Positions 16,113 through 58,885 of a stretch of 64,000 bases of DNA are shown piece after piece (the stretch's first letter is position 1; each line of letters starts with the position of its first letter). The stretch is from Lineus longissimus. Taxonomy: Eukaryota > Nemertea > Pilidiophora > Heteronemertea > Lineidae. The position numbers were made by a program, and so were the translations under genes. Where the stretch lies: NCBI RefSeq assembly GCF_910592395.1, contig NC_088314.1, positions 10,850,001 through 10,914,000 on the forward strand, given 5' to 3'. The notes beneath the pieces are model-generated. The model was not told the DNA's origin. It did not search any database and worked only from the letters and a program-made list of their open reading frames with translations.

Positions 16113-19100
16113 CCAGAAGTATTAAGGTAGCAGGAAGGGTTGGGCGTTTGTGGTTTCTGAGTCTGAGGGGGTTGGTGTCTGTTGACTGTGCTTTAAGAGA
16201 GACTAGGCATGGCGCCAGTCTCTCTTAAAGCACAGTCAACAGGCATTTGGTCTCAGTATTTGGGTTTTGATTGCCATGACTGTACCCCTGTAAAAGTCAG
16301 AGGAGGAGAAGTTTGGAATGATGAAAGCATTGAAGAAGAAGAAATGTTATTATTGAGGAAAGCAAAATTTATTATGAGACTAGAAGGCAGTGTCCTGACT
16401 TGATTATTTTGAAAATGGCGGTCTGAACACATTAAAAGGTGGAACATGGCATTTTATCGACTTTGAAGTGTTCCGCAGTTAAAGGGAGACTATAGGCAGC
16501 AGCTAGGTAGGCAAGATAAAGTCATACAAATTTGCCAATAGGGGTCAGTCATATCTCTAGGCATGGCGCCAGTCTCTCTTAAAGCACAGTCAACAGGCAT
16601 TTGGTCTTAGTATTTGGGTAAGTACAGAATCAAGGCAGCTCAGAGAGCAATGATTGAACGATGCTGTGGACAAGTCCAAGGATACTGCATCAGTCACGAC
16701 CAACTTCTCATCAGAAAGCGTCACCACCAGCATATTCAATGTTCAGTTCCAACCTGTACCAGTCCAATGCACGCCTGTCATGGTCAGCAGTGGTCAGCTT
16801 AGCGCGATATGGAACATTCTTCCGAAACTCAAGCGAGGGAAGTCTGCTCATTAGCCTATCTCGCGCACTGCTCCTTCTTGTCAAACATCGTAGTGAAATC
16901 GTGGTAAAGTGGGGCGTCCTCGAGGATTGCAGCTGGTCGGACAGACGTGAGGTGGAATGTGGGCGGCTGCACTTCTTCGTTGATGTGCGATGGCAGATAG
17001 CACAGTTGTTGCGTTGCATGACAGCTGAAAGTGAATGTGATATCATAGAACTGAGGCGTTTGCAATGAGACCATAGGTGAAGTAGAAGCAAGGAGTGAAA
17101 TGGGCCATCTTCCAGTGACTAATATACAGAGTAAGGGCACTGGGTGTTGTTAGATTCAGCATTGAATGTATTCCTCATACAAGCGTGAATAGTGTGGACA
17201 TACAGTGAGAGGTGAGAGACCCCTTCTTGTAACTTTATCTTGGATATTATATTAGTATTGAACTTCTAGCCATGGAATATGAAGAAATTGAAGTTGTAGG
17301 CATGGAATATGAAAAGTTATTCAACGGTGAAAGACATTATTCCATGAGGCTTTGCCGTGATCGCAAAGGACGCGACGTGATTGGTTCACATGCTAATGAG
17401 GTATGATAATGATAATTACCTCTATAATGCTACTTGGATAGCGACTGTGTCGTTGACTGGAACAGTGGTCAATGTCAATGTGTGCCTGTAATGTCAATGA
17501 AGTATGATGAGGTGATGACGATAGTGCAATTATTAAATATTGGCAAGAGATCATACTGCAACATAGGTCTTGTTTTTGACAGATGACTGTGCGACATTCC
17601 CATTGGGTCTTGTTAGAGTCAGCGCTGCATGTATTCCTTGTACAAGCTTGAATAGTTGTGACGGACTTTGAGGGGTGAGAGACCCCTATCGGCTACTTCG
17701 TCTAACTTTATCTTGCCTACCTAGCTGCTAGCAATAGTGCCCCTTTATCAAGACTGAAACCCACTGTGCGGGGCTAAGAAATTACCTTTATAATCCTAGT
17801 TGGATAACCACTGTGTAGATGATTTGAAGAGTGCTCTGTGGATGTGTGCCTGTAATGTCAATGAAAGTATGATGAGGTGATGACGATAGTGGAATGACGA
17901 AATATTGGAAAGAGATCTATTCCTAGAAGAACATATGTCCTGTTTTGACTAGGTGGCGCATTTTAGAATCAGCAGTGAGCACTGTGTGTAACATGGTGGA
18001 GGCAGCGGAGATAATAACTGTGTCGAAAGTATTGTTATATGGCCTTCCCTAGGCCCATGGGGTTAAATTTACAATCCACGATTGAAAAGACGTAGTTTGA
18101 TCGCATTCAACTATAAATCCATTGAACAGTTGTGTTCCTTTAGTCAACCGATGACCTTTTGTTGGGCCATGATCGGGGATTGTAAACTGTAAATGTATTA
18201 TGGACTGGGAGACGGGGGGAAACACAAGTGAAACTGAAATAGACCAAAACAAGTGATTTTGGGGCTTTGGTTTAGACGCATGCCCCATGCGCCATGCGGG
18301 ATTATACGGTTCATGTGAACTTGTTGACATCCATATGATCTGGTGCTGTTATTGGTCATGGACATGGTACATGGTAGGTATAATCATCATGCCTATATGT
18401 TTCAGGAAAAGCTCGGAGTAAAATGAACTGCCGATGAATAATGATGTTGTTCATGTTTGTTTACCATGTTTACTAGTACATAGCCATAGGGTATGCACTG
18501 GCCAGTGCACTTTCTGCACGTCGTCATGGTCATGTACGTGATACCTTGCATATTTTGTTTTTTGAATGCGCATGCTTTTTGGGCAAAATCACTTGTACCA
18601 ACACTAATGAATAATGTCTTCTTATCCCTATGACTCCATACACAGTGAGGGCATTGTCCCATTCCCATCAAATGGTAACTTATTGTACCGTATTAGGGTG
18701 GAAGTTGGGGAGCAGATACCTACCGTTGCACGCCTGTCATAATCAGTAGTGATGAGCTTAGCGCGATATGGAACATTCTTCAGAAACTCAAGCGAGGGAA
18801 GTCTGCTCATTAGCATATCTCGCGCACTGCTCCTTCTTGTCAAACATCGTAGTGAAATCGTAATGGAAAACGTCTGGCTTTGCGCCAGACGTTGAGACTA
18901 ATAAGTGAAGAACTAATAGGTAAAGAACTTCTACTTGCGCGAGACTGCTCTGATAAAATTATCATTGCCGAGACTACGGTGACGTACACATATATTTTTT
19001 ACAATCAAAAATGCCCTCAAAAGACGACATGGAATGATTATTTTATTGATATTTCCTACTATATACCTTCCAATTATCACTTTATACAAATAGATCGGCG

Positions 19101-19262
19101 TTAGGTCGCATGCTTTTCTTTCCTGGTGACACTATAAAGCAAAATAGTTGCAACCCCGTAAATGCGCTATAAGTCCAATAATAAGTGACGGTGACCCGTT
19201 ATAAATGTTTCGCCAGCTTCGCTTTTTTGCCGCTACGCGGCGCGTTGGGCCCTTGCGTCAAG
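16113..19262 (-). repeat. Family E element, long copy (inserted in BEL 1)
   Basis: This 3.15-kb copy starts CCAGAAGTATTAAGG and ends GCGTCAAG, in the opposite orientation to the copies at 7926 and 21195. It contains the 64-bp hairpin at 16179-16242, a second copy of its right arm at 16566-16602, and an internal duplication: 17160-17230 resembles 17610-17700, and 17470-17545 resembles 17835-17920. About 1.1 kb (17455-18600) is absent from the 21195 copy. No intact transposase is recognised. Short ORFs near 16661-17068 and 18880-19104 recur in other copies. Confidence 0.8.
16179..16242. repeat. 64-bp hairpin in family E
   Basis: Perfect 26-bp arms (CTGTTGACTGTGCTTTAAGA...) surround a 12-base centre. 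The same arms occur in the copies at 5935, 8640, 23090 and 24290. Confidence 0.85.
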
Positions 19263-20971
19263 TTAGCATGTTGTGGGCACAATCTCCAGTTGAATTGGTG
19301 AACAATAGAACTATGGTTGAAAGTAGGTTTGAGTCTTTGTGCAAAAAGTTGAATAAAAATCCTGACATGAGAAGTAGATATGAAACTGAAATGAATGGCT
19401 ACATTGCGAAGGGGCATGCACGTCGTTTGTCACCTGAGGAAGCTGAATTGAAATCTGATCAGACGTATTACCTACCGCACCATGGGGTTGTAAATCCAAG
19501 AAAACCCGAAAAACTACGTGTAGTGTTTGATGCTGCCGCTAAGTACAGTGGACATAGTCTGAATTCTAAGTTGATATCGGGGCCAGATTTGACTAACAAT
19601 TTAGCGGGAGTTTTGATGCGTTTTCGTCAGGGTGTAATAGCCATGGCCGCCGATATCGAAGGCATGTTTCATAATGTGCGTGTGCCTACATCTGATCAGG
19701 ATTCTCTTCGCTTCCTCTGGAAAGACCATTTAGAATCGTCAGACCCTCCTTCTGAATACCAAATGTGCGTCCATATATTTGGAGCAAAGTGCTCTCCATG
19801 TTGTGCTAGTTATGCTCTGAAACGTGTAGCTATTGACAACTTAGAGTACAGTCGTTTAGCTAGGGAAACAATTCTCAGACAATACTACGTTGATGATATG
19901 CTTAGAGGGTTTGATGGTACCCCTCTGGAAGCTACATCACTAGCGTTGGAATTGATCGACTTGAATAGCAGGGGTGGCTTCAAACTTACCAAATGGGCCT
20001 CCAATTGCCCAGAGTTGTTAGAGGCTGTAGCAAGTGTAGATGGTATCAAAACCCATTTGAAATTAGATTTAGATGGTAGTGTGATTACTCGAACTCTAGG
20101 AATCGCCTGTGATTTGACGCATGATATTTTCATATTTGACACTGTGAGCTTACCAACTGTGGAAACCCTGACTAAGCGTATCCTACTGAGTATAGTCAGT
20201 ACAGTATTTGACCCATTAGGTTTTCTAGCCCCTTTCATTGTGAGAGCAAAGATTCTTTTACAGAGTCTATGGGAGAAGGGTCTCAATTGGGATGATCCCA
20301 TTCCCCTCGATGAGTATTTGAAGTGGGAAACATGGTTGTCAGAGCTTGAAGATTTGCGTCTTTTCAGTTTGAGGCGATGTTTTTGGCCAAATGGTTTGAT
20401 ACCAATGATATTCAATCTTCATGTGTTCTGTGATGCCTCTGAACAAGCCTTTGGTGCTGTTGCGTATCTGCAGGTTATTTCATCCCAGGGATTGGTTCAC
20501 TGTACTATTATTATGGCTAAGACACGTGTCGCCCCTGTGCGGAAGAATAGGTTAACTTTACCTCGCCTGGAGTTGCAGGCTGCTGTACTTGCGGTACGCT
20601 TGTTTCGTACAATTCGTGAAGAGATAGATGTTCAGCTGACTGCTGTTTATCTCTGGTCCGATTCCAGTATTGTTCTACATTGTATCAGAAATGACTCAAA
20701 AAGGTTCAAAACATTTGTGGCAAACCGCATAGCTGAAATCAGACAAGAAACAAATCCATTTCAGTGGCGACACGTGCCTAGTCAATTGAACCCTGCAGAT
20801 GATTGTTCACGCGGATTGTTGGCCAATGAAATTCGACCTGGTCACCGTTGGCTTGAAGGGCCAGAAGTCTTCCCAGAGTTTAAAATTAAAAATGAAATGA
20901 CCGTAAGTATAGCATGCCAATGGTTAGGAGTAATGCATGAAGTTCCCTTGCACTACCACGCCTCAAAATGA
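19263..20971 (+). pseudogene. BEL/Pao reverse transcriptase-RNase H
   Basis: The long frame opens at 19205, but its first roughly 20 residues are E element sequence. The BEL part gives 'VELVNNRTMVESRFESL', 'TYYLPHHGVVNP', 'LRVVFDAAAKYSG', 'AADIEGMFHNV', the catalytic 'YYVDDML', 'LFSLRR', then a Pao-type RNase H ('VFCDASEQAFGAVAYL', 'LTLPRLELQAAVL', 'YLWSDSSIVL') and 'HVPSQLNPADDCSRG'. Catalytic residues look intact. It ends at a stop 20971, before any integrase. Neighbouring Gag on the same strand supports one element, now lacking protease and integrase. Confidence 0.9.
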
Positions 20972-21194
20972 AAAGCTGACCATGTCGGACAAATGAAAAG
21001 TTAACTTGGTAATAAGTAGGCCTATTCCTCCTAGTAAATCAATTTAAGATAGGACTAAGTATAGCTACCGGACAAGGAAAACTGGCAAAGTTGGAAATCA
21101 AGAACGTTATAGCGAGCAAAAGGTTGACACAAACATTACAATATTGACACAAACATATGCAATAATGCGACTAAAAGATACCACATATCTGTAA
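20972..21194. other. Unassigned 223-bp spacer
   Basis: AT-rich sequence between the BEL RNase H stop and the inverted E copy. I see no BEL integrase and no gene. Confidence 0.5.
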
Positions 21195-23217
21195 CTTGAC
21201 GCAAGGGCCCAACGCGCCGCGTAGCGGCAAAAAAGCGAAGCTGGCGAAACATTTATAACGGGTCACCGTCACTTATTATTGGACTTATAGCGCATTTACG
21301 GGGTTGCAACTATTTTGCTTTATAGTGTCACCAGGAAAAAAAAGCATGCGACCTAACGCCGATCTATTTGTATAAAGTGATAATTGGAAGGTATATAGTA
21401 GGAAATATCAATAAAATAATCATTCCATTTCGTCTTTTGAGGGCATTTTTGATTGTAAAAAATATATGTGTACGTCACCGTAGTCTCGGCAATGATAATT
21501 TTATCAGAGCAGTCTCGCGCAAGTAGAAGTTCTTTACCTATTAGTTCTTCACTTATTGGTCTCAACGTCTGGCGCAAAGCCAGACGTTTTCCATTACGAT
21601 TTCACTACGATGTTTGACAAGAAGGAGCAGTGCGCGAGATATGCTAATGAGCAGACTTCCCTCGCTTGAGTTTCTGAAGAATGTTCCATATCGCGCTAAG
21701 CTCATCACTACTGATTATGACAGGCGTGCAACGGTAGGTATCTGCTCCCCAACTTCCACCCTAATACGGTACAATAAGTTACCATTTGATGGGAATGGGA
21801 CAATGCCCTCACTGTGTATGGAGTCATAGGGATAAGAAGACATTATTCATTAGTGTTAATCAACGACACAGTCGCTATCCAAGTAGCATTATAGAGGTAA
21901 TTATCATTATCATTCATACCTCATTAGCATGTGAACCAATCGCGTCGCGTCATTTGCGATCACGGCAAAGCCTCATGGAATAATGTCTTTCACCGTTGAA
22001 TAATTTTTCATATTCCATGCCTTCAACTTCAATTTCTTCATATTCCATGGCTAGAAGTTCAATACTTATATAATATCCAAGATAAATTTACAAGAAGTAG
22101 TCAATAGGGGTCTCTCACCTCTCACTGTATGTCCACACTATTCACGCTTGTATGAGGAATACATTCAATGCTGAATCTAACAACACCCAGTGCCCTTACT
22201 CTGTATATTAGTCACTGGAAGATGGCCCATTTCACTCCTTGCTTCTACTTCACCTATAGTCTCATTGCAAACGCCTCAGTTCTATGATATCACATTCACT
22301 TTCAGCTGTCATGCAACGCAACAACTGTGCTATCTGCCATCGCACATCAACGAAGAAGTGCAGCCGCCCACATTCCACCTCACGTCTGTCCGACCAGCTG
22401 CAATCCTCGAGGACGCCCCACTGTACCACGATTTCACTACGATGTTTGACAAGAAGGAGCAGTGCGCGAGATAGGCTAATGAGCAGACTTCCCTCGCTTG
22501 AGTTTCGGAAGAATGTTCCATATCGCGCTAAGCTGACCACCGCTGACCATGACAGGCGTGCATTGGACTGGTACAGGTTGGAACTGAACTTTGAATATGC
22601 TGGTGGTGACGCTTTCTGATGAGAAGTTGGTCGTGACTGATGCAGTATCCTTGGACTTGTCCACAGCATCGTTCAATCATTGCTCTCTGAGCTGCCTTGA
22701 TTCTTTACTTACCCAAATACTAAGACCAAAGCCTGTTGACTGTGCTTTAAGAGAGACTGGCTCCATGCCTAGAAATATGACTGACCCCTATTGGCAAATT
22801 TGTATGACTTTATCTTGCCTACCTAGCTGCTGCCTATAGTCTCCCTTTAACTGCGGAACACTTCAAAGTCGATAAAATGTCATGTTCCACCTTTTAATGT
22901 GTTCAGACCGCCATTTTCAAAATAATCAAGTCAGGACACTGCCTTCTAGTCTCATAATAAATTTTGCTTTCCTCAATAATAACATTTCTTCTACTTCAAT
23001 GCTTTCATCATTCCAAACTTCTCCTCCTCTGACTTTTACAGGGGTACAGTCATGACAATCAAAACCCAAATACTGAGACCAAATGCCTGTTGACTGTGCT
23101 TTAAGAGAGACTGGCGCCATGCCTAGTCTCTCTTAAAGCACAGTCAACAGACACCAACCCCCTCAGACTCAGAAACCACAAACGCCCAACCCTTCCTGCT
23201 ACCTTAATACTTCTGGA
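21195..23217 (+). repeat. Family E element, 2.0-kb copy
   Basis: It runs from CTTGACGCAAGGGCCC to CTTCTGGA and is an inverted copy of 16113-19262, with about 1.1 kb of internal sequence missing. The two copies flank the BEL RT-RNase H fragment as long inverted repeats with a 1.93-kb spacer. Confidence 0.8.
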
Positions 23218-37123: not shown

Positions 37124-37397
37124 TTAAAGGTCATATATCAAGGTTTTTTGCCATTTTCTGCTGTAAGACGATTTCAAAAGTGTACCTAACACTCTATACA
37201 ATACAGAAAACCAAATGCAATTATGTGTTTGACAACTTGATTACCTGATCAGGCTAGCAACTGGCTTGTTAGAGCCAGGCGGCGGGTTCAGCAAAAGTTG
37301 TGATGTAGATCAGGTCATCTGTACATGTCATGCAATCATAAAAGCAGGAGGGCCTTAATTAATTATGCACACCTGGAAGTAATGTGTTTCATTCACT

Positions 37398-37751
37398 ATG
37401 GTGTATTGTGTGGCTCCGAATTGTGTCAAGGCTAGCACAAAGAACAATCGAATGACGGATGGGACCCATTTTCATGAATTTCCAAAGCCAGTTGAACGAG
37501 ATAGGAGGAAGCTGTGGATTCGGAAGTGCAAACGTTTGGAGTGTTGGAAGCCTGGGCCTTCGGCCAAACTTTGCAGTGATCACTTTATCGATACGGATTA
37601 TCACATGAAGCCGGATATCTGCATCCAACTGAATATTAAATGCCACTTGTTAAAAACAGCTGTTCCATCTGTATTCGATTTGACCAACCCCACTTACATG
37701 CGACAGCCTCCAAAGGAACGTTCGTTAGCCAAAAAACGTAAACATCAAGAA
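37398..37751 (+). pseudogene. THAP-domain first exon of a Kolobok transposase
   Basis: It starts at ATG 37398. Zinc ligands of the C2CH THAP finger are visible: C4 and C9 ('YCVAPNC') and 'CSDHF', with the conserved Trp ('LWIRKCKR') and an 'AVPSVF' box near residue 91. The frame runs into GTGAGT at 37752, a good splice donor, like the exon 1 donor of the 57323 gene. No later exons follow in this short element, so it is a remnant. The finger would bind the transposon ends. Confidence 0.85.
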
Positions 37752-38303
37752 GTGAGTTGAACACTATTTCATGATTTATACACTGCTGATGCACACAACA
37801 CTCATACTACCCAAATGGCACATGTCATCCACTGTACAGTGGCTACACAACCATGTCAATTGCATTTAATGCCCGAGGCTGCTGAGGTCGGTTGTTATAC
37901 ATAATGTGTAGGCCCTATTGGGGCCTGTGATACCGCATAGTGTCTTCTTGTGTTCCAGCCATAGCAAGGTGACAGCGAGGTGACAGCGACACAGGTCAGT
38001 GTCAGTGACAGCCACTGTCAATGACAGATTATTGTCATCTGACATCTAGGCCTATCTAACGTTGCACGGCATTATATCGTCACGTCAAGATGATTGTGCA
38101 TAATACCGTCACTTTTCAATAGTAGTTCAGCGTCATGACATAACTGGCGATACAACACAGACGAGGTGAAACAATATTGTGCAACATTAGTCTGTTCAAA
38201 AATCATACAATACATGTTATGCATCTGCAACCATCTATCAATGTCTTCTTTGCTATATCGGCAGGTCTGCCATGCAAATTGATTAACCACAAATTCTAAT
38301 TTA

Positions 38304-38423
38304 TCAATATATCAATATCAATGGCTCGAACATGTATGGCTCAACGTTTAAATATCCTTCTGTATCGACCAAAACATCCTCAAATTCACTGCTCTCACTC
38401 TCTGAACTGTATGCGGAAGCCAT
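38304..38423 (-). pseudogene. Acidic first exon resembling the P2X7-ballast partner gene
   Basis: A 39-residue frame from ATG 38423: a Ser/Glu-rich start (MASAYSSESESSEFED) and then 'VEPYMFEPLI'. The partner gene at 50574 also has an acidic Ser-rich start and 'GYQFEPLVE'. It lies opposite the THAP exon and converges on it, as in the large element. A further minus frame at 38072-38290 could be a decayed second exon but is unconvincing. Confidence 0.5.
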
Positions 38424-38662
38424 CTTGCTTTGTTCTGACTGACCTGACCTACGTAATCAAAAAATCCCTAGCGGCCACATGTGGAACTAATCTAAAGTTG
38501 TGTGTGGTGGGAAATTCAAATAGGTTCAAATTGAAAATTGAAATAACTAAATAATGACTTTATTATTAGAATTTTTTTAATGTCTGGGATCTTGTTTTTT
38601 TAACCCTCAACATATTTCATGAGTATCAAGCATGTTTTCAAACCTTGATATATGACCTTTAA

Positions 38663-49600: not shown

Positions 49601-50573
49601 TTGGCTCGTAGGGGAGTCTATACAATAACACAGTGTCCGTCATCCGTCGTCGTCGTCGTCTGTATCCTGTTTCAAAAACAGTGGCATGTGCCTTAAAGGG
49701 AGGCTATTGGAATGAATCCATGCTACAAAATCAATATTTTTTTTAAACAAATACATACCAAGTTACATGACAAACAAATACTCTACACCAAGGATATTAT
49801 AAATATTCTTAGCTTGTGCAGAAAATTGCATTTATTTGAGCAGTTTGCGGGGATAGCCATATCTGTTCAAATCTCCCGGGCGAATGACATCATGGATGTA
49901 GCTCGCTCCTCGCAAGTGACTAATTCTTCTTCTGTATATCCCAGTTTGAACGCATAACCTCAGCCAAAACCAAGGCCAAAACCTCGAAATGATTTGTCCA
50001 AAGAACCATCCACATCGCTTGACATGATTGACGAACTGTCGGTCTCATTATCGTCCGGTATCCCAAGGGAAAAGATTAGTTTTATTTGACTTCTTTTGAT
50101 TCGATTTGACTGAATTCATTTTGTTTCGTTGTCACATGGCTGCATCCATGACGTCATTGACTCTCCGTTTTGGAGGAGAGACCAGGTTAAATCAAACAAG
50201 ATGGCGGCATACTTGATTCAAAAATAAGCAGTGACAAGTGGATTAAAATCATCCATTTCACTCATTAATGTTTGTTTATTTATAAAACCAAGAACCACAG
50301 TTGTTGTTAAAGAGAGACTTCAGAGCTCAGGACAACTTTGCATTTTTGAATCACTTATTATAGTCAAATTTGAGTGAACATAATTTTTTTTGTGTTTGCC
50401 CACTCCTTTCCTTACTTGTAACATTTTTTGTTTCGGTCTCATCACTGTTTTGCGTCGTCTGCTAATAATCACAGTAAAAACACGGTTCGCCTGGCCGCCA
50501 TTACGATGACGTCACGAAATGGACAGCTCTCTCGGCCTCGCTTTCACCCACAGTGCCTGTGTACACATTCAAC

Positions 50574-51834
50574 ATGTCAGACTCGAGCGCAATAAGTGAT
50601 TTTCAAGTTTCTGATAGTGATAATGCTAGCGTTGTAACATCCTCGAGTAATTTCACGGATAGTGGAGATGAATCAGTGGTAACTGGTGTCATTCTTGGCT
50701 ACCAGTTCGAGCCCCTTGTTGAAGGCGGTTTTGAGGATATGGAAGAAGGCGAGGATGTTGATGACGAGGAAGAGGAAGATAGATTCTGGCGACTTCGTAT
50801 GGAGGAGCAAAACTGGTACGTGAATTGCTGGATGCAAAAATGCATTTTTGACAATATTATCAGTTACAAATGGTACAAATCACGTAGATCTCACGGTCTC
50901 CTTATCCATGTCCTATTTGTCTGCTCTCGAAGTGCATTAGCAGCGTTTTTCGTTGGATGCTTCGATACACTTGTCCGACAATTGATTTTCGGACTTTCAA
51001 TTTCGCTCATTGTACAGCTTGAGCTTGGCTTCCTTTTTGCATTATAAGTTCTTGCTTCCATGTTAGTTGACTGGATATTGCTGCAGCAGTGCCTACAAAT
51101 GCCTAACTTGCTGTTTTCGTTTAGCTAATGTTATGTTATCACTTTGTTTACTAATGAACCATACTAAGCACACACATCATGCATTGGCAGCTAGCTGGAC
51201 TGCACTGGATGTGGAAGACACCTTTGCCTTGTTTATAAATATAATGTGTGATATTTTCTTTTAGGTGCATATGTGGTGACAAATGTGAGGTGCAAGATGT
51301 CCCAATAGAAAATGCCTGTTGCCATGAAAAGGAACCAATTTTGAGGAAAATTGAGGCGTACAACGAGGAACATGGCGGAAACATTCGGTGCATCACCGAA
51401 CATCCCGGGTTCCAGTCCAATTGCCTTGATGTGTGGGTGCTACAGACTGCCTACTCCCATTACAAGCAGCAATATCGGGCGGCAGTAGATGGAGAAACAA
51501 ATGAGTACGTGATACTTGTATTTCATTCAATATTGATAATATATTTTCATTCCTAATGTTATTACAAATGATCAGAAAATATTGCACTCATAATACATAA
51601 TGAAGAGTAGTCAGTCACAACATGACTAACAAAACATACGTCTAGTGATATATTGGTCATGCATATACCTTACTCCTTTACTAATGTTATGCATTATCTT
51701 TCAGGAAATATAGATACGTTGCCTATCGTCAACTCGTCAGGTGGTGCTGGGGATTCCTTGGGAAAAAGAATCGAGTGCCCCTACCAGCATGTGCTTTGGA
51801 GAAGATCCGGTTAAGATTTTATGTTCTTGGATGA
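50574..51834 (+). CDS. P2X7-type ballast-domain protein (transposon partner gene)
   Basis: Three exons: 50574-50815, 51265-51504 and 51705-51834, with GT-AG borders (GTACGTG, TTTTAG; GTACGTG, TTTCAG), 203 residues. Residues 1-70 are acidic and Ser-rich with a GYQFEP motif at 42-47. Residues 81-200 match the cysteine-rich intracellular domain of P2X7: W81-CICGDKC, CC at 99-100, 'CITEHPGF' at 123-130, 'YRYVAYRQLVRWCWG' at 163-177, 'LPACALEKIR' at 187-196. There are no membrane segments, so this is not a channel. In P2X7 this domain binds zinc and guanine nucleotide; the Cys pattern here fits zinc binding. Its role in the transposon is unknown. It may help transposition or act on host chromatin; that is inference. 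It converges on the transposase gene. Confidence 0.85.
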
Positions 51835-51963
51835 CTAGATTTATAGAATGTATCACAAAGCATTCACTAGTGTTTATTCATATCACCCAGTCATGCCAGT
51901 GTCATGCAAAACTTGTGCCATTGGATTGTTCATGAACATGAATCTCTATAGATTTACACGGAT

Positions 51964-54900
51964 TCAACGAGTGGATTTTCGTGAAGGCTGGATGTAACAT
52001 GATTTGGAGTATCGCTTGTGTCTTTCGTTATAGCTGTCAACAGCTTCAGCCTTATTAGGGTGATCATATGAGCTACAGAGTGCTGGTGGTATGTAGATAT
52101 TGTTGTCCTCAAAGTCAAAGTCGTTCTCTCTGCACCGGCGCTGAACTTCTACCATCAACTTGTCGACATAACCTGAAGTGAAAGGAAAATTTTATCTTGT
52201 AAAGCATCTGTCAAGCACGAACCTATATTCACTCTTTGTCATGTCTCGCACTTTTTGAAAACTTATAAAAACTGTCTTTTTGTCACTGTTACCTTACATG
52301 TATTCTAGAAACAAAGGGTGATATGAATAAAGACTTGTAAATGCTTTTACTTCAGTTTTGTACAGAAAGGCCTAGTGTACTGTATGGAGTTTTCAGTAAA
52401 AGCATTTGCTAGTCTTCACCCATTGACTGGGTGTGTGATTTGTACATTTAATGATCTAAAAATACAATTATTTTATACAACTTTGCAATTTACTTCCTCT
52501 TATGTATACATGTATGACATAAGACATTTCTGAAGAATGGATTCTGGGCAGCTTGACTGCTTGATATCTGCCCAGAAAGAGTCACGTCGATTGAAAATAA
52601 TGTAGTATTTTTTATGCTTACCATGACTAGAATCGTCCTTGATTGGTCTCACTGAGTAACCACCTTTCTTGGATTTGATGAAGGTTACTGACCATCTTAG
52701 TCGTTGCCTGCTCCCTGTCACCATTTTCATTATAATGTAGCGCTGACAGGAGAAGCCTAAAAAGTAAAATATAAAAAGTTCTCAGATACTTGTGCATGTA
52801 TGTCATTCAAGGCTCATTGGCGGGTGAAGTTCTCAACTGATAAATTGACTTGATTGATAGATTTTGGAACATCACTCAGCTGTGCCTGGTTCTGTCTTAT
52901 TTCAAGTACACGTACACACCTCACTGACAAATTTCTAAAGTTGGTAATTTCATGAAGACTTTGAGTAGATTTCACTACTCCAGGACTTCATGTACATTTG
53001 TACTGCGGCCTTCTATCAAACTTGGAATTTACCTGCATAGCATCCCTTTGAAGCTGAATGCAGTCATTTTGGGGGCAAAATGGAGGATGAGACTGTGATA
53101 TGCCTCAATACTTGACGTCTGTTCGCCAGGAGACATTTTCTTCACAGCCGGTTTGAAGTAGGCATTGTCAATAATGTTGCCAGCTTTCACTGATGCTGCC
53201 GATCCTGAAATTTGAAAATGTGAATAGGTCACACAAATAATTTGATGTTCATTTTATCACTAGAAGACAGACCATTCTATCCGAGAGTTTTGTTTTGAAA
53301 CATCTCTCCAAAAACTTTGTGCATGTCGTGATGCATGTCCACTCAAGTCGATACCCGAAGGTCTTCGATATCAATTCGAGAAATACTCACCTTGTTCAAG
53401 CCACTTCGTGCCCTTCTGGCTTCCTGGAATCGACAACCACTTGGCCAGCATCATATTTGGGTCCCCATCTGGAGTTGTTGCAGCGCACCTGTAAAGGTGA
53501 TTGATTATAGACCTCCGCCACTCCTCTAAAATCCCACAGTTTTTCTCCTTTGAAGCCTTGCCAACCTTCTTCTTTAAACCTGGAAAAAAGGAGAACAGTC
53601 CTAATAATTCTAGCAATTATCAATTTGCTATGGACTATGACATTCATTTTTGTAAAGTGTTTCTCTTGACTCGTGCATTCACTTTTCTAACAAATCTCCA
53701 CACTGGACCAGGCTGAAAAGTTCAATCTAAGAACAGTACTGTACTCTAAATAATTTCATGCCCAATATAATATGTAGACACTACGGACACTTACTCTTGG
53801 CCAAATGCCAGACGTCAAAACGATGGTCTGTATCCGGTAGATTTTCTCTGAGCCACTTGTTGATTTGGACATGCCGATCAGTCACTATTTTTGAAATAGT
53901 GACATCCTCCGTTTCCAGGTATCTAACACATCGAATCAACCCTTCCTTCTCAATGTTAACACTATGGTTGACGCCCTCTTCATTCGACTGAAAGAGATGA
54001 GGTATGGAGATTGATACTTATGTCCTAATGTGCATATCAATTTCATGGAATCAAATTAAAATCTAGTTACATGTACAATCTGGAGGAGTGTTCTACAAAG
54101 TACATTACAATAAGAACAAACTCTCCAATAAAATCCATGTTGTTTACATTTTATGTATGATTATCGTCATTTAACGGCAACAGTATGATATCAACAATGT
54201 TATCTAATGTGATCTTCTTCATGATAATCTGAAAACAAGGTTTACTGATCCATATTTACATGTACAATTTTCTTTTATATCGCCTGTGTAATTGAAAAGC
54301 AATAATTATAATTTTACTTACTTGAACTAATTGCACATCCAAAATGCGGTTGACATTCAACTCCAGGAGAGAGTAGGAGCCGTCTTTTGCACAATGCCCT
54401 GGGCTGTCTGATCTACCGTCCCCTCCAACAACAACTGGCTTCCTGGAATCTTTCACTTGCTGCAACACTTCCTGCTGGTTCTCCCGCCACACTGTCATCA
54501 CTGCCGGCCACAGGTATTGCCTCTGGTGCTGGTAGAAGGTGCCCCGTTTTATCGCTTGGCATCCAAGATAACTGAAGACTTTCAGCGTTTTGGCTGCAGT
54601 CGATCCAGCGAAGAGGATGGCACTGGAGAGCAGCAAGTTTCCAGCTGGAATACGGTTGATAAATGGTTGGCTCTCCCAAAATCTGAAATGAAAGCAATGT
54701 TCAGCATGACACAAAATGTACCAAGTGAAAAGGACTCTGGAGAAAACACTATTAAACACCTAGCTATTATTTAGTCACACTAATGCTGAAAGATGTATTA
54801 ATTGATTGATGTACTTGGTTAGCCAAAATTTTGGCAATCGGGGAAAAAAACATGACAACAATTTTCATACAAAAATACAGGATTTCCTTCAATCTTACCT

Positions 54901-57323
54901 TTCAAAAGAACATAGTTTATTGGAACAACATTGCTTAATGGATAGATATGTCCCTAGGGTCCTGATGTGTCTCTTGGCTGGGGAACAGCATACAGGACAT
55001 ATCTTGAAGAGTTCCATCAATTTCGAGTGGAACACGAGGTACTTCGTCTGACAGTGTGGATCATCTTTCCTACGGAAAAATCGAGAGAAAATTCACAAAG
55101 AATACACAAAAGTCAAAAGCACAGGAAAAATTCCAATCTGCATGATCTGTGTTGGTGATGACTATATAAAAGGATCAGTTTTGTGGACTGGTCAATATCA
55201 CTGGTAAATTTACAAGGCTGTTTTTTAAAAATGATCGCACAAGCTGTTGCCAGTGTTGGGCCCCTTTTTATAGAAATTCCTGGAAATAACATTTAGATGC
55301 TATATTGTTTTTTATTATGTTGAGATGGCTTATATCAGATTACATGATTATGTTTTAGACAACCTTCTTCAATGCAAGGACACTGTAGTGTTACATAAAT
55401 GTAGTAAAATACTCACTCATTATCATTATCAATGAAGTTGAATTCTTCATCAGAGACCTCCTCGCTGCTGATGTCGCTCTCTGCTGGTTCATAGCTCTTG
55501 TCAAGGGGATCAACCGTATCTTCAAGAGATTCATCATCAGACGATTCTGACCCAGGTCCATCCTCCATTTCATTTGAAGCTGATTTGGCTTGAGGGCAAT
55601 TTCCTGTGGCTATGTTTGGAAGGTGGTCAGGGTCAGTTCCAGTTGGTGTTCCTGTAAAATTCAATATACATGTAGCATTAGAACATGCAATATCATATCG
55701 ATTTTATGTTAAAACTAATCGGATAGATTCTTGACAGTGAGACAACATGCAGATGCTGTGAAAATTTCCCGTGTTCAGTTCCAACATATTATCTCGACAT
55801 TGACGGAGATCTTTCACAGTTTGTCTTTTTCATTTCTCTGAAAACATCATTTCATAAAAGCTTTACCTGATGAGGAAACATTTGGCTTGACATCAATGCT
55901 GGAAATGCTGCACACCTTTTCATCTGTTTGTGTTCCTGAATATAAAAACAAAAAGTTTCTCAAACTTGTCTCAGTTCCCTAATAAATTCTATTGTGTTCA
56001 ATTTGGCAAAAGCTACTTGTTTATGGAGTCGCCCTGTTTTATGACCAATATTAGTATATTATGCTTTAAAAATACTTACCTATTGAGACTGTCACCTTGG
56101 TCTTTGGTTTTTCATAATTCGTCTGCACCCTCATCGAACGATGCTTTGGTCGCCGAATTCGCCTATTCACTTGGGTGAATTGACTTTTGGTCTGACAAGG
56201 CTGAAAAGGTGGAGTAAAGAGCTCAAATAAAAACCATTGCCAAAACTTTGTTTCATGAATTCAACTTTTTGCTATGCATAGTCAAGTCTAGTTACATGGC
56301 TGCTTGTTGTAAAGTCTGTTCCGAAATATTGAGTAAAAGAGACAAAATGTTTTCTTTTACCTGGAAGGCAATGATGATGGGGGAAATTTTTACTGTTCCA
56401 TCCAGAGTAATGTCAGCTTGTTAGTTTGATTCTCAACTCACCACAGATTCCTGACCACCATCTTCATCATCACTGACATCAGCTTCGATAGCAGCTTGGA
56501 AATCCATGGCTTCCTTCCAAGCACCAGCAGCCTCCACGTCCTATGTAATTGTAAAAAGAATGAAATTATTGCCAGTGATTGTCCCACATGTCAGTCTATA
56601 CCCCTGATTATCTCGTCTTATATTGTCTAACTGCTCTATGCATCCGTCAGGAAGTAAGGAAATGTATGGGCCTTAAACTGTCATGACTGTTACTGTGTGA
56701 TGCTTCATACATAGGCCTACAATGAGTACAATGCATAATAAGCATAACAAGAATGTAAACAAAACATGACTTACTCGTTTTCTCTCCCTTATCACGACGG
56801 CATTTCGACTTCCAGTCAATTTGGGGGTCGTAAAAATGTCTGATGAAGGACCAGGAACTGGGGTGAGAGGGCTTCGTGTAGCTTTCGGACGTTCTGTGAC
56901 TGCAGGGGTCCCGTGTTTCGGCTTGCTGGGGAGAAGTGAAACAGACGGGATCGCATCGTCGGCCAGGCTCCAGTTCACTTTGATGTCCTTGGCATCTTTC
57001 TGATATGCCTTCGCCAGCATTTCTTTCTGCATTTGCCTGGACACACTGTTGGTCATATCGTCGGGAAAATGTTCACTACATATCACTGCATTTTTGGTCC
57101 AAACGAAATCTGAACGGGAGTGGGAAACGACCCTGCACCAAGCTTTAAATCTCCGAGAATCATCAGCTCTATCAGGAAACAAATGCGCTCCGATTTCACT
57201 ATTTGATGTGGTGTTGCCGCATCCATAAACAACACATCGTTTTCCCCGGTCTTTCCTCAGCTTCTTCAGGGTTTTAGTCCTCTTCTCCGGCGGTTCGGCA
57301 GTATCTTCACTTGTACAATCCAT
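51964..57323 (-). CDS. THAP-domain Kolobok transposase, 12 exons, one frameshift
   Basis: Exons (minus): 57323-56775, 56540-56442, 56200-56080, 55935-55867, 55651-55417, 55069-54899, 54682-54322, 53987-53795, 53579-53391, 53204-53033, 52756-52622, 52172-51964, all with GT-AG borders and matching phases except exon 11. Total 2503 bases, about 833 residues. Residues 29-100 are a THAP finger (C30, C35, C82, H85). Exons 2-5 are an acidic linker. Exons 6-12 hold the transposase core: 'KICPVCC', 'FWESQPFINRIPAGNLLLS', 'VVGGDGRSDSPGH', 'IVTDRHVQINKW', 'DVWHLAK', 'INHLYRCAATTPDG', 'EQTSSIEAYHSLILHFAPK', 'SKKGGYSVRP'. Likely acidic catalytic residues are D of GGDGR, D of TDRH and E of IEAYHS (inference). 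Exon 11 carries one extra base, or two lost, between 'REQATTK' and 'SVTFIKS'. The product would cut and paste the element at TTAA. Confidence 0.85.
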
Positions 57324-58238
57324 CGCAATCTTTCAGTATATGCCGCTGATGAGAACATTTTACCTTTATGTAGCCTGTAGGGGCCTAAGTTCCTAGTTAA
57401 TCCCATTGTTTAGCCCGATAATCCCTCTAATTAGCATTCAGGAACATGGTTCGTCTGACACCTTTGGCTTATCAGCACCGCTGTCAAAACACGATATGGG
57501 TGTCCATCTCGTGACGTCATCCAACATGGCGGCCGTTATTGGAATTTCTTTAGCAGAGACAAGACCACAATTGATTTTTTAAGCCTTTTAGCAGTTAAAT
57601 TGTCAATGTTTGACCGCGACGCATCAAAGAATGCGTCAAGTAGTGAAACTGAAATTCGGATATGATATACGGGTTAGTCTTGCGAGTAACTGGTGCGATG
57701 GAAATTGGTGATTGACCACGGAAATTTTTTTATAATCGACAAATTAGATAGACTTTGATATTTCCACTGTTTTCAGCCAACTGGCAGAAAAAACTCAAAA
57801 CACGCCCCGTATTACCCAATTAGCAAAATTCGAAATTAATTTTTTCATCAAATAATTTATTTATATCTGTAGACTTGCCACAGCAAATATTTTTTCAATA
57901 CCTCTCCAAATATGTACTTGAGAGTAAAAAACATGCACTCGTCTAATTGATAGGCCTCGACCCTCCAACCTATGAATATTCATTAGTGGTCTTGTCTCAG
58001 CAGGCTCGTAGCAGACGATGGATTTGGAAATTTTAAAACGCTAATTAAAAAATAACTATCCGTAGGAAAATAATTATTTTCATTCAGGATTGATTAAATG
58101 ACTGCCATTAACCCATTTCTAAAGTTTTATCAGTACATCAAATATCTATGAAGTCTCTCTTTAAGAATACGCAGTTTACATAGATGTTAAGGTTATGTAA
58201 CTGTTGGTCGACTGGGCAATTATTCCAATAGCTTCCCT

Positions 58239-58885
58239 TTAACCGCTAGGTCTATGAACTTGAAACTTTGTACACATAACCCCCCCCCCCCCCCAGGTCA
58301 GGTGACCTCTGACTCTGACTTTCAGTCCAATTGGATTCTTGACCTGGCCACCAGGGGGCCAAAAGTTGTGACCTAAAAAGTGTGATATCTCGTTTATGAT
58401 TGACTTATTTTCGCTTAATTTTTTATGGCAGGAACTCCTAGCTAGGATACATCACAGGGTTTTTGATTTTAGCTAATTTTCAAGGTCGCTGAGGTCAGAT
58501 GGGGTAAATTGGCGGTTTAAGGGTAACTATGGCATGTTTCTTAACCACTGAAGCTATGAACTTGAAATTCGGTACACATTACCCCCTAAATCAGATGACC
58601 TCTGACACTAGATTTCGGTCTGATATGATTCTCGACTTGGCCACCAGGGGGCCAAAACTAAAAAGGGTACAAAGTGCAATATCACGCTTATTAGTGACTT
58701 GTTTTCAATGATATTTAGTTACTTGGTATCGATGATATTATTATGGTAGGTACTCCAAGAAACGATACATCACATGTCATACCGACTTTGGTTTGACCTA
58801 CTAAACATGTAGCATGTTTGCCAGGATGAATTCCTTACCACCAAATATCTATACGGTGAGTACAATGGCCCGTGGCCGTTTCATT
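58239..58885 (+). repeat. Right part of HINE-like copy 3
   Basis: Two monomers starting at 58243 and 58530 followed by the terminal hairpin. The CCAGGGGGCC motif of each monomer is kept. Confidence 0.7.

Follow-up and report, generated by a model that had tools for sequence, protein, structure and literature searches.

In a 64,000-nucleotide window of the genome of the nemertean Lineus longissimus (contig NC_088314.1, positions 10,850,001 to 10,914,000, numbered here from its first letter), we identified what is very probably a damaged Kolobok DNA transposon of the Kol0 type. It carries a THAP/DDE transposase gene and, convergent with it, a gene for KolX, a protein related to the ballast domain of the P2X7 receptor, and it lies inside another small TTAA element (Table 1). 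Judged from the sequence, its marks are TTAA-bounded inverted ends at 50311 and 58160, two genes, the ballast identity of one of them and a convergent pairing that recurs in the Lineus longissimus genome. The original prediction knew of no description of the pairing of the two genes. There is one: the pairing, the identity of KolX as a ballast protein and the origin of P2X7 from it were published in 2022 (Kojima & Bao 2022, PMC9587614, as far as its available text goes), and the present result is a confirmation.

Table 1. Features of the Kolobok element and its surroundings in the window
Feature	Position	Strand	Basis or remark
Transposon proper, very probably Kolobok (Kol0 type)	50311..58160		Inner terminal inverted repeat pair and homology limits against other copies in the same genome
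TTAA target-site duplication, left	50307..50310		
TTAA target-site duplication, right	58161..58164		
Left terminal inverted repeat, AGAGAGACTTCA	50311..50322	+	Exact match with right end
Right terminal inverted repeat	58149..58160	-	
Left part of outer, different TTAA element	49697..50310		Inverted-pair search; flanks of 5 other copies show no homology to it
Right part of outer TTAA element	58165..58238		Inverted-pair search; homology limits of other copies
Stretch upstream of KolX, GCCGCCAT..TGACGTCA	50493..50525	+	Recurs inverted upstream of transposase, 57501-57534; BLAST 34 columns, 88%
KolX exon 1, acidic Ser-rich N-terminal part	50574..50815	+	Low-confidence region in the model of relative P0001
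KolX exon 2, six of seven zinc cysteines (by alignment)	51265..51504	+	Present in 5/5 other copies with full left end
KolX exon 3, C-terminus truncated in window copy by short deletion	51705..51834	+	
THAP/DDE Kolobok transposase, ~12 exons	51967..57323	-	Zinc-finger stretch gone in exon 9; frameshift in exon 11
16-nt stretch at transposase deletion joint	53416..53431	-	Identical to 54435-54450 (exon 7)
Nested repeat, not in C20, C1 and C11 (3/4 other copies)	57557..57998 (~442 bp)		

KolX Is a Ballast Protein Next to a THAP Transposase

The prediction of two convergent genes, a three-exon ballast gene and a THAP transposase gene, was borne out. The open reading frame of KolX, 203 amino acids long and read from three exons on the forward strand, gave a translation matching Pfam PF20478 (P2X7 intracellular domain) with an E value of 5.7e-11 and 43.1 bits, against a curated cutoff of 23.5. 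The transposase gene begins at 57323 and runs towards KolX on the reverse strand, and its translation contains a THAP domain (PF05485, E 4.1e-11). The closest protein to the window KolX, a relative labelled Lineus longissimus (P0001), is 99% identical to it. A profile built from 29 of the 39 relatives found matched P2X7 alone in the PDB, which accounted for all four sequences at E ≤ 1 (best 4.6e-11). The structure model of P0001 had a predicted local distance difference test (pLDDT) score of 72.6 and a predicted template modeling (pTM) score of 0.61; in a search with this model, P2X7 took the first 14 places among the best 50 of 61 matches (E ≤ 10), with a probability of 1.00, a best E value of 4.6e-4, three matches at E ≤ 0.001 and a TM-score on the query of 0.38 to 0.40, while the match in row 15 had an E value of 2.1.

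For residue conservation, we used a wider alignment holding 95 of 120 relatives (those of at least 120 amino acids), the 120 being the best of 137 found. All seven zinc-cysteine positions are Cys in the window KolX by this alignment, and a zinc site is predicted; among the 95 aligned relatives the seven cysteines were present in 76/79, 73/79, 77/79, 84/89, 87/89, 89/92 and 93/93 rows. Of the five guanosine diphosphate (GDP) contacts of rat P2X7 (PMC7016195, from its available text), two are present in the window KolX, with Arg at the positions of R546 and R578, though these contacts do not define the Pfam family. The two arginines are found in 93 of 94 and 87 of 93 relatives, respectively, and their columns rank 3rd and 15th among those KolX columns in which 80 or more of the 95 rows have a residue, a cut below which three zinc-cysteine columns (79 rows) fall. 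The window protein shares its seven zinc cysteines and the two arginines with the ballast domain of P2X7, but it is without the P2X channel part, and it differs from human P2X7 in having His127 and Cys134 (P0001 numbering), which occur in 82 of 92 and 77 of 93 relatives and are missing from the human protein in the alignment with 29 relatives. A KolX-specific His/Cys/Cys triad looked promising in 29 rows as a general third metal site and was rejected, being complete in 31 of 91 rows of the wider set.

A mobile element had been suggested as a place from which the vertebrate domain could come, with a tree including P2X7 as the check. In a ballast tree built from 91 of the 95 aligned relatives together with the window protein and the P2X7 sequences of human and rat (94 rows in all), P2X7 did fall among the KolX rows; it did so on a very long branch beside another long row, a kind of join that may be false, and with few columns. 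The tree does not show which KolX lineage was ancestral to P2X7. The neighbors of the window KolX in it were P0002 of Tubulanus and P0003 and P0005 of Lineus, all nemertean, plus three further rows. A viral or prokaryotic source was set aside, as scans of viral and prokaryotic contigs based on the 29-row alignment, each using a single short motif, gave no relative.

The transposase was compared with 14 relatives, chosen among the best 120 of 220 found and carrying no lineage name. The residues D414, D484, D505 and H508 were present in all 14 and E665 in 12, which together give the catalytic residues and the DxxH motif; the same residues are found in the window translation and were assigned by eye from the published description of the motifs. 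The H2CH zinc finger of the family is present in P0040, the relative that is 94% identical to the window transposase (633 of 675 alignment columns), and among the chosen rows H565 is conserved in 13 of 14 and H570, C580 and H582 in 14 of 14. The DDE, THAP and H2CH motifs are the usual ones of such transposases, as stated in the accessible part of a 2018 paper on Xenopus (PMC6004289).

What KolX May Do in Transposition

By cut-and-paste, the THAP domain would bind the transposon ends and the DDE core would cut and join at TTAA, a course to which both knowledge of the family and the observed ends point. KolX, supplied together with the transposase, may serve as a zinc-stabilized accessory protein of the transposition complex. 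Rather doubtful, though still to be taken seriously, is that KolX rides along as a passenger, serving the host cell (for instance in defence or in regulating expression) and having no part in transposition. This would fit the use of the ballast domain in a signaling receptor, P2X7, and the part in transcription proposed for zebrafish Nanor, a host gene (PMC7016195). KolX nevertheless stays beside the transposase in several diverged families, and the GCCGCCAT/TGACGTCA stretch lies upstream of both window genes. The latter is a weak argument, as TGACGTCA is found before both genes in L033 alone among the 22 other loci scanned. It lies within 200 bases upstream of KolX matches in L025, L027, L028, L035 and L033 and is elsewhere absent or farther away, and the window holds five further copies of it outside 49697-58238. 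Because of this scatter, a shared control of KolX and the transposase through the stretch is only a suggestion.

A narrower form of the accessory role, which we regard as improbable, makes KolX a guanine-nucleotide-binding zinc subunit of the THAP transposase and the GDP pocket of P2X7 a relic of that use. The THAP transposase of the P element, a related protein, uses guanosine triphosphate. If the idea were true, KolX would be a nucleotide switch for transposition. In its favor are the highly ranked arginines at the R546 and R578 positions. The absence of the three other P2X7 contacts (H547, R574 and K583 of the rat protein) from the window KolX counts against it. That ballast domains bind GDP was raised earlier, as a question, by Rump et al. 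2020, whose available text places it in no transposon context (PMC7016195).

The Ends of the Element

The inner TTAA pair TTAAAGAGAGACTTCA (50307-50322 and 58149-58164) is exact over 16 nt, whereas the longest TTAA-anchored pair among 300 shuffles was 12 nt. When the sequence that follows the inner left end was searched for in the genome at the DNA level, 12 matches came up; six, counting the window copy, were full length. In all five other full-length left ends, homology began at 50305-50307, and the adjoining DNA was different in each. At the right end, homology stopped at 58164-58170 in three of four copies, the fourth (C3) extending only to 57999. The TTAA target-site duplication, a feature of Kolobok elements, is present at both inner ends in the window copy and in the C20, C1 and C11 copies. 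The inner termini AG...CT conform to the 5'-RR / YY-3' pattern of the superfamily, whose published definition includes these termini together with the DDE and DxxH motifs (PMC9587614). Because homology to the other copies begins and ends at the inner TTAA pair, we take 50311-58160 to be the Kolobok unit.

The original prediction had placed exact ends, AGGG next to TTAA, at 49697 and 58238. A TTAA inverted pair is indeed there: the outer AGGGAGGCTATTGG ends with their TTAA (49693-49713 and 58222-58242) are inverted over 21 nt with 95% complementarity and are the sole two matches in the window at ≤3 mismatches, against a mean of 0.00 in shuffles (n = 100). They belong, however, to a different element, of about 0.7 kb (614 + 74 bases), into a TTAA site of which the Kolobok is predicted to have inserted. 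We consider it very unlikely that the entire 49697-58238 is one transposon in which the inner pair is a subterminal repeat. Apart from the high complementarity of the outer pair and its TTAA, this reading draws on the likeness of the outer terminal inverted repeat (TIR) to that of the ballast-carrying L025/L027/L028 family (5 mismatches in 21, TTAA counted) and on a 41-bp piece of the outer left part (~50141-50181) that has an inverted match close to the left end of both L025 and L035. The homology limits at the inner TTAA, with flanks that differ in each copy, and the TTAA at both inner ends of three further copies argue against 49697 and 58238 as the transposon's own ends and leave the Kolobok unit as delimited above.

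Recurrence of the Pairing in the Genome

We found at least 96 PF20478 matches in the genome, at about 95 places (150 of 187 candidates scored); the window KolX was not among them, and fragmentary or damaged copies may be numerous in this set. We read the surroundings of 20 of these matches and three further loci, 23 in total. An opposite-strand Kolobok-type transposase was present in 16 of the 20 sampled loci (nine queries, E 1e-4), and in 15 of those 16 all transposase matches lay 3' of the ballast gene, L016 having them on both sides. A wider search of the same loci (120 queries, E 1e-3) raised the count to 17 by adding L024, with matches on both sides, and 4 kb of further sequence around the four empty loci brought in L013 as a marginal addition (E 4e-4). 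The convergent pair is also present in L033 and L035.

Starting from the transposase, we obtained at least 86 matches (58 of 705 candidates scored), which form 33 clusters including that of the window. A PF20478 match lay within 9 kb of 11 of the 33, whereas random placement gave 0.155 on average and never more than 2 over 1000 placements, a control that assumed 18 Mb for some contigs and covers the PF20478-only count. With the seven best KolX-leader matches of the window family added, 17 of the 33 clusters were paired, the window copy included, and all 17 were convergent (in the C10 pair, 7 kb apart). In such transposons the ballast gene is thus recurrent and no one-copy accident, in line with the original prediction, which had treated it as a resident of the element.

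The two conditions under which the original prediction would have been refuted turned out mostly in its favor. Copies of the transposon lacking the ballast gene would have pointed to chance capture: all five other copies with a full left end retain KolX exon 2, and one transposase of the window family, described below, has no KolX nearby. So would ballast genes lying mostly outside any TIR-bounded unit: TTAA pairs more than 3 kb apart surround both genes in four of the 20 loci (L018, L020, L025 and L028), compared with 5 of 200 shuffled loci having any such pair, as well as in L035 and, less exactly, in L033; for most sampled loci, no ends could be recovered within the 10 kb read.

Several observations weigh against the interpretation as a Kol0-type element with a recurrent gene pair. 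With the window KolX alone as query, a phmmer search of the PDB found no P2X7. In comparison with P0040, a net 23 residues covering the H2CH zinc finger are missing from the window transposase, which also loses its reading frame in exon 11; the gene model of P0040 itself begins after the THAP domain. The Kol0 type is a probable assignment, made from KolX and the published description of Kol0. Three of the 20 sampled loci had no transposase in the first 10 kb by the wider query; in L012 and L014 none was found even with the wider query and 4 kb added, and none was found in L034. On the transposase side, 16 of the 33 clusters have no ballast match among the matches listed, and no KolX was found in the 2.5 kb searched in L050, downstream of the C9:8129203 transposase of the window family. 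These last two points are what speaks for a chance capture, in which the ballast gene would be a host gene taken up by one copy; the convergent pairing in 17 of the 33 clusters across diverged families, the PF20478 count far above random placement and the published pairing in Kol0 elements of several animal groups (PMC9587614, available text) rule out a chance passenger with next to no doubt.

Damage in the Window Copy and the State of Other Copies

The H2CH finger is usual in Kolobok transposases and absent from the Kolobok1 lineage. We read its absence from the window copy as damage by deletion, not as the sign of a different family, a reading based on the comparison with P0040. The 16 nt at the deletion joint look like templated filler. 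The window KolX has lost its last residues through a short deletion, and the longer C-terminus is kept in the C20, C1 and C11 copies. In the C3 copy KolX exon 3 is missing, and the C9:5263139 copy has a stop in KolX exon 2 with nothing matching beyond it within the 1 kb read. The window copy is probably immobile unless an intact copy provides the proteins.

Other Elements in the Window and Sampled Loci

The repeat nested in the transposon at 57557-57998 has imperfect inverted ends (57553-57579 and 57975-58001); it lies within the C3 match and recurs in L019, with three matches, and in L033, with one. A second ballast-carrying Kolobok family of about 6.0-6.3 kb is represented by L025 (3730-9705), L028 (285-6244) and L035 (548-6810), with TTAA at both ends and the TIR AGGATAGCTCCTGGAATAAATC, which is similar to the TIR of the outer element enclosing the window Kolobok.

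Elsewhere in the window, the TTAA-anchored inverted pair TTAAAGGTCATATATCAAGG at 37124-38662 encloses a stretch (37395-37754) that Kolobok-type transposases match 12 times, their N-terminal, THAP-side part giving the six best matches. This appears to be a further TTAA element, non-autonomous and lacking a ballast gene. At 5869-26265, with a core at 16122-23207, TTAA inverted pairs share one axis (for example 16122/23207, 16225/23104 and 16479/22850), and a Pao-type retrotransposon frame lies at 19205-20968 (Peptidase_A17, E 2.8e-49); the arrangement points to long nested inverted repeats around that frame. Beside one ballast locus, at L017 7200-9578, TTAA-anchored inverted pairs on one axis are exact over the 40 nt compared, and by its sequence this stretch is a large palindromic repeat.

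Relation to Known Systems

Kol0 Kolobok elements are reported to encode a transposase and KolX, KolX to resemble the ballast fold with its seven cysteines, and P2X7 to have arisen through fusion of a P2X4-like gene and KolX (Kojima & Bao 2022, PMC9587614, available text). A KolX with the ballast fold, one criterion of the Kol0 lineage, is what we found in the window. In common with Kol0 elements carrying KolX (Kolobok-1_XT), the element has the TTAA duplication, 5'-RR/YY-3' ends and a DDE transposase with a ballast-fold second protein; it differs in being damaged and nested in another element. The hosts given for Kol0 in the available text are vertebrates, annelids, cnidarians and sponges (PMC9587614), and the families described here are nemertean. 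Zebrafish Nanor is likewise a ballast protein that stands alone, and domestication of a KolX has been proposed as its origin (PMC9587614), but it is described as a host gene, and the available accounts mention no adjoining transposase or TIR.

A scan of the window proteins found no piggyBac family and no nuclease family at E ≤ 1. The former, with the 5'-RR ends, excludes a piggyBac identity. KolobokP, too, is a Kolobok transposon whose second protein lies on the opposite strand. By its description, however, it ends in long direct repeats of ~450 or 660 bp and encodes a His-Me nuclease; the longest direct repeat among those listed for the window was 34 nt, which together with the lack of a nuclease match excludes it as well.

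Among the papers listed by a full-text literature search, no description of a link between KolX or the transposon and P2X7 was seen beyond that of Kojima & Bao 2022. The survey of Rump et al. 2020 reports that the ballast domain occurs across animals, with "only one or a few (<10)" ballast genes per species, and its available text mentions no transposon (PMC7016195). The published view of the P2X7 ballast domain as a transposon protein is checked here independently and quantitatively across one whole genome, in which at least 96 matches at about 95 places stand against the fewer than ten genes per species of that survey. Since this genome also contains near-identical copies in which the KolX frame is longer, the function of KolX could be tested.

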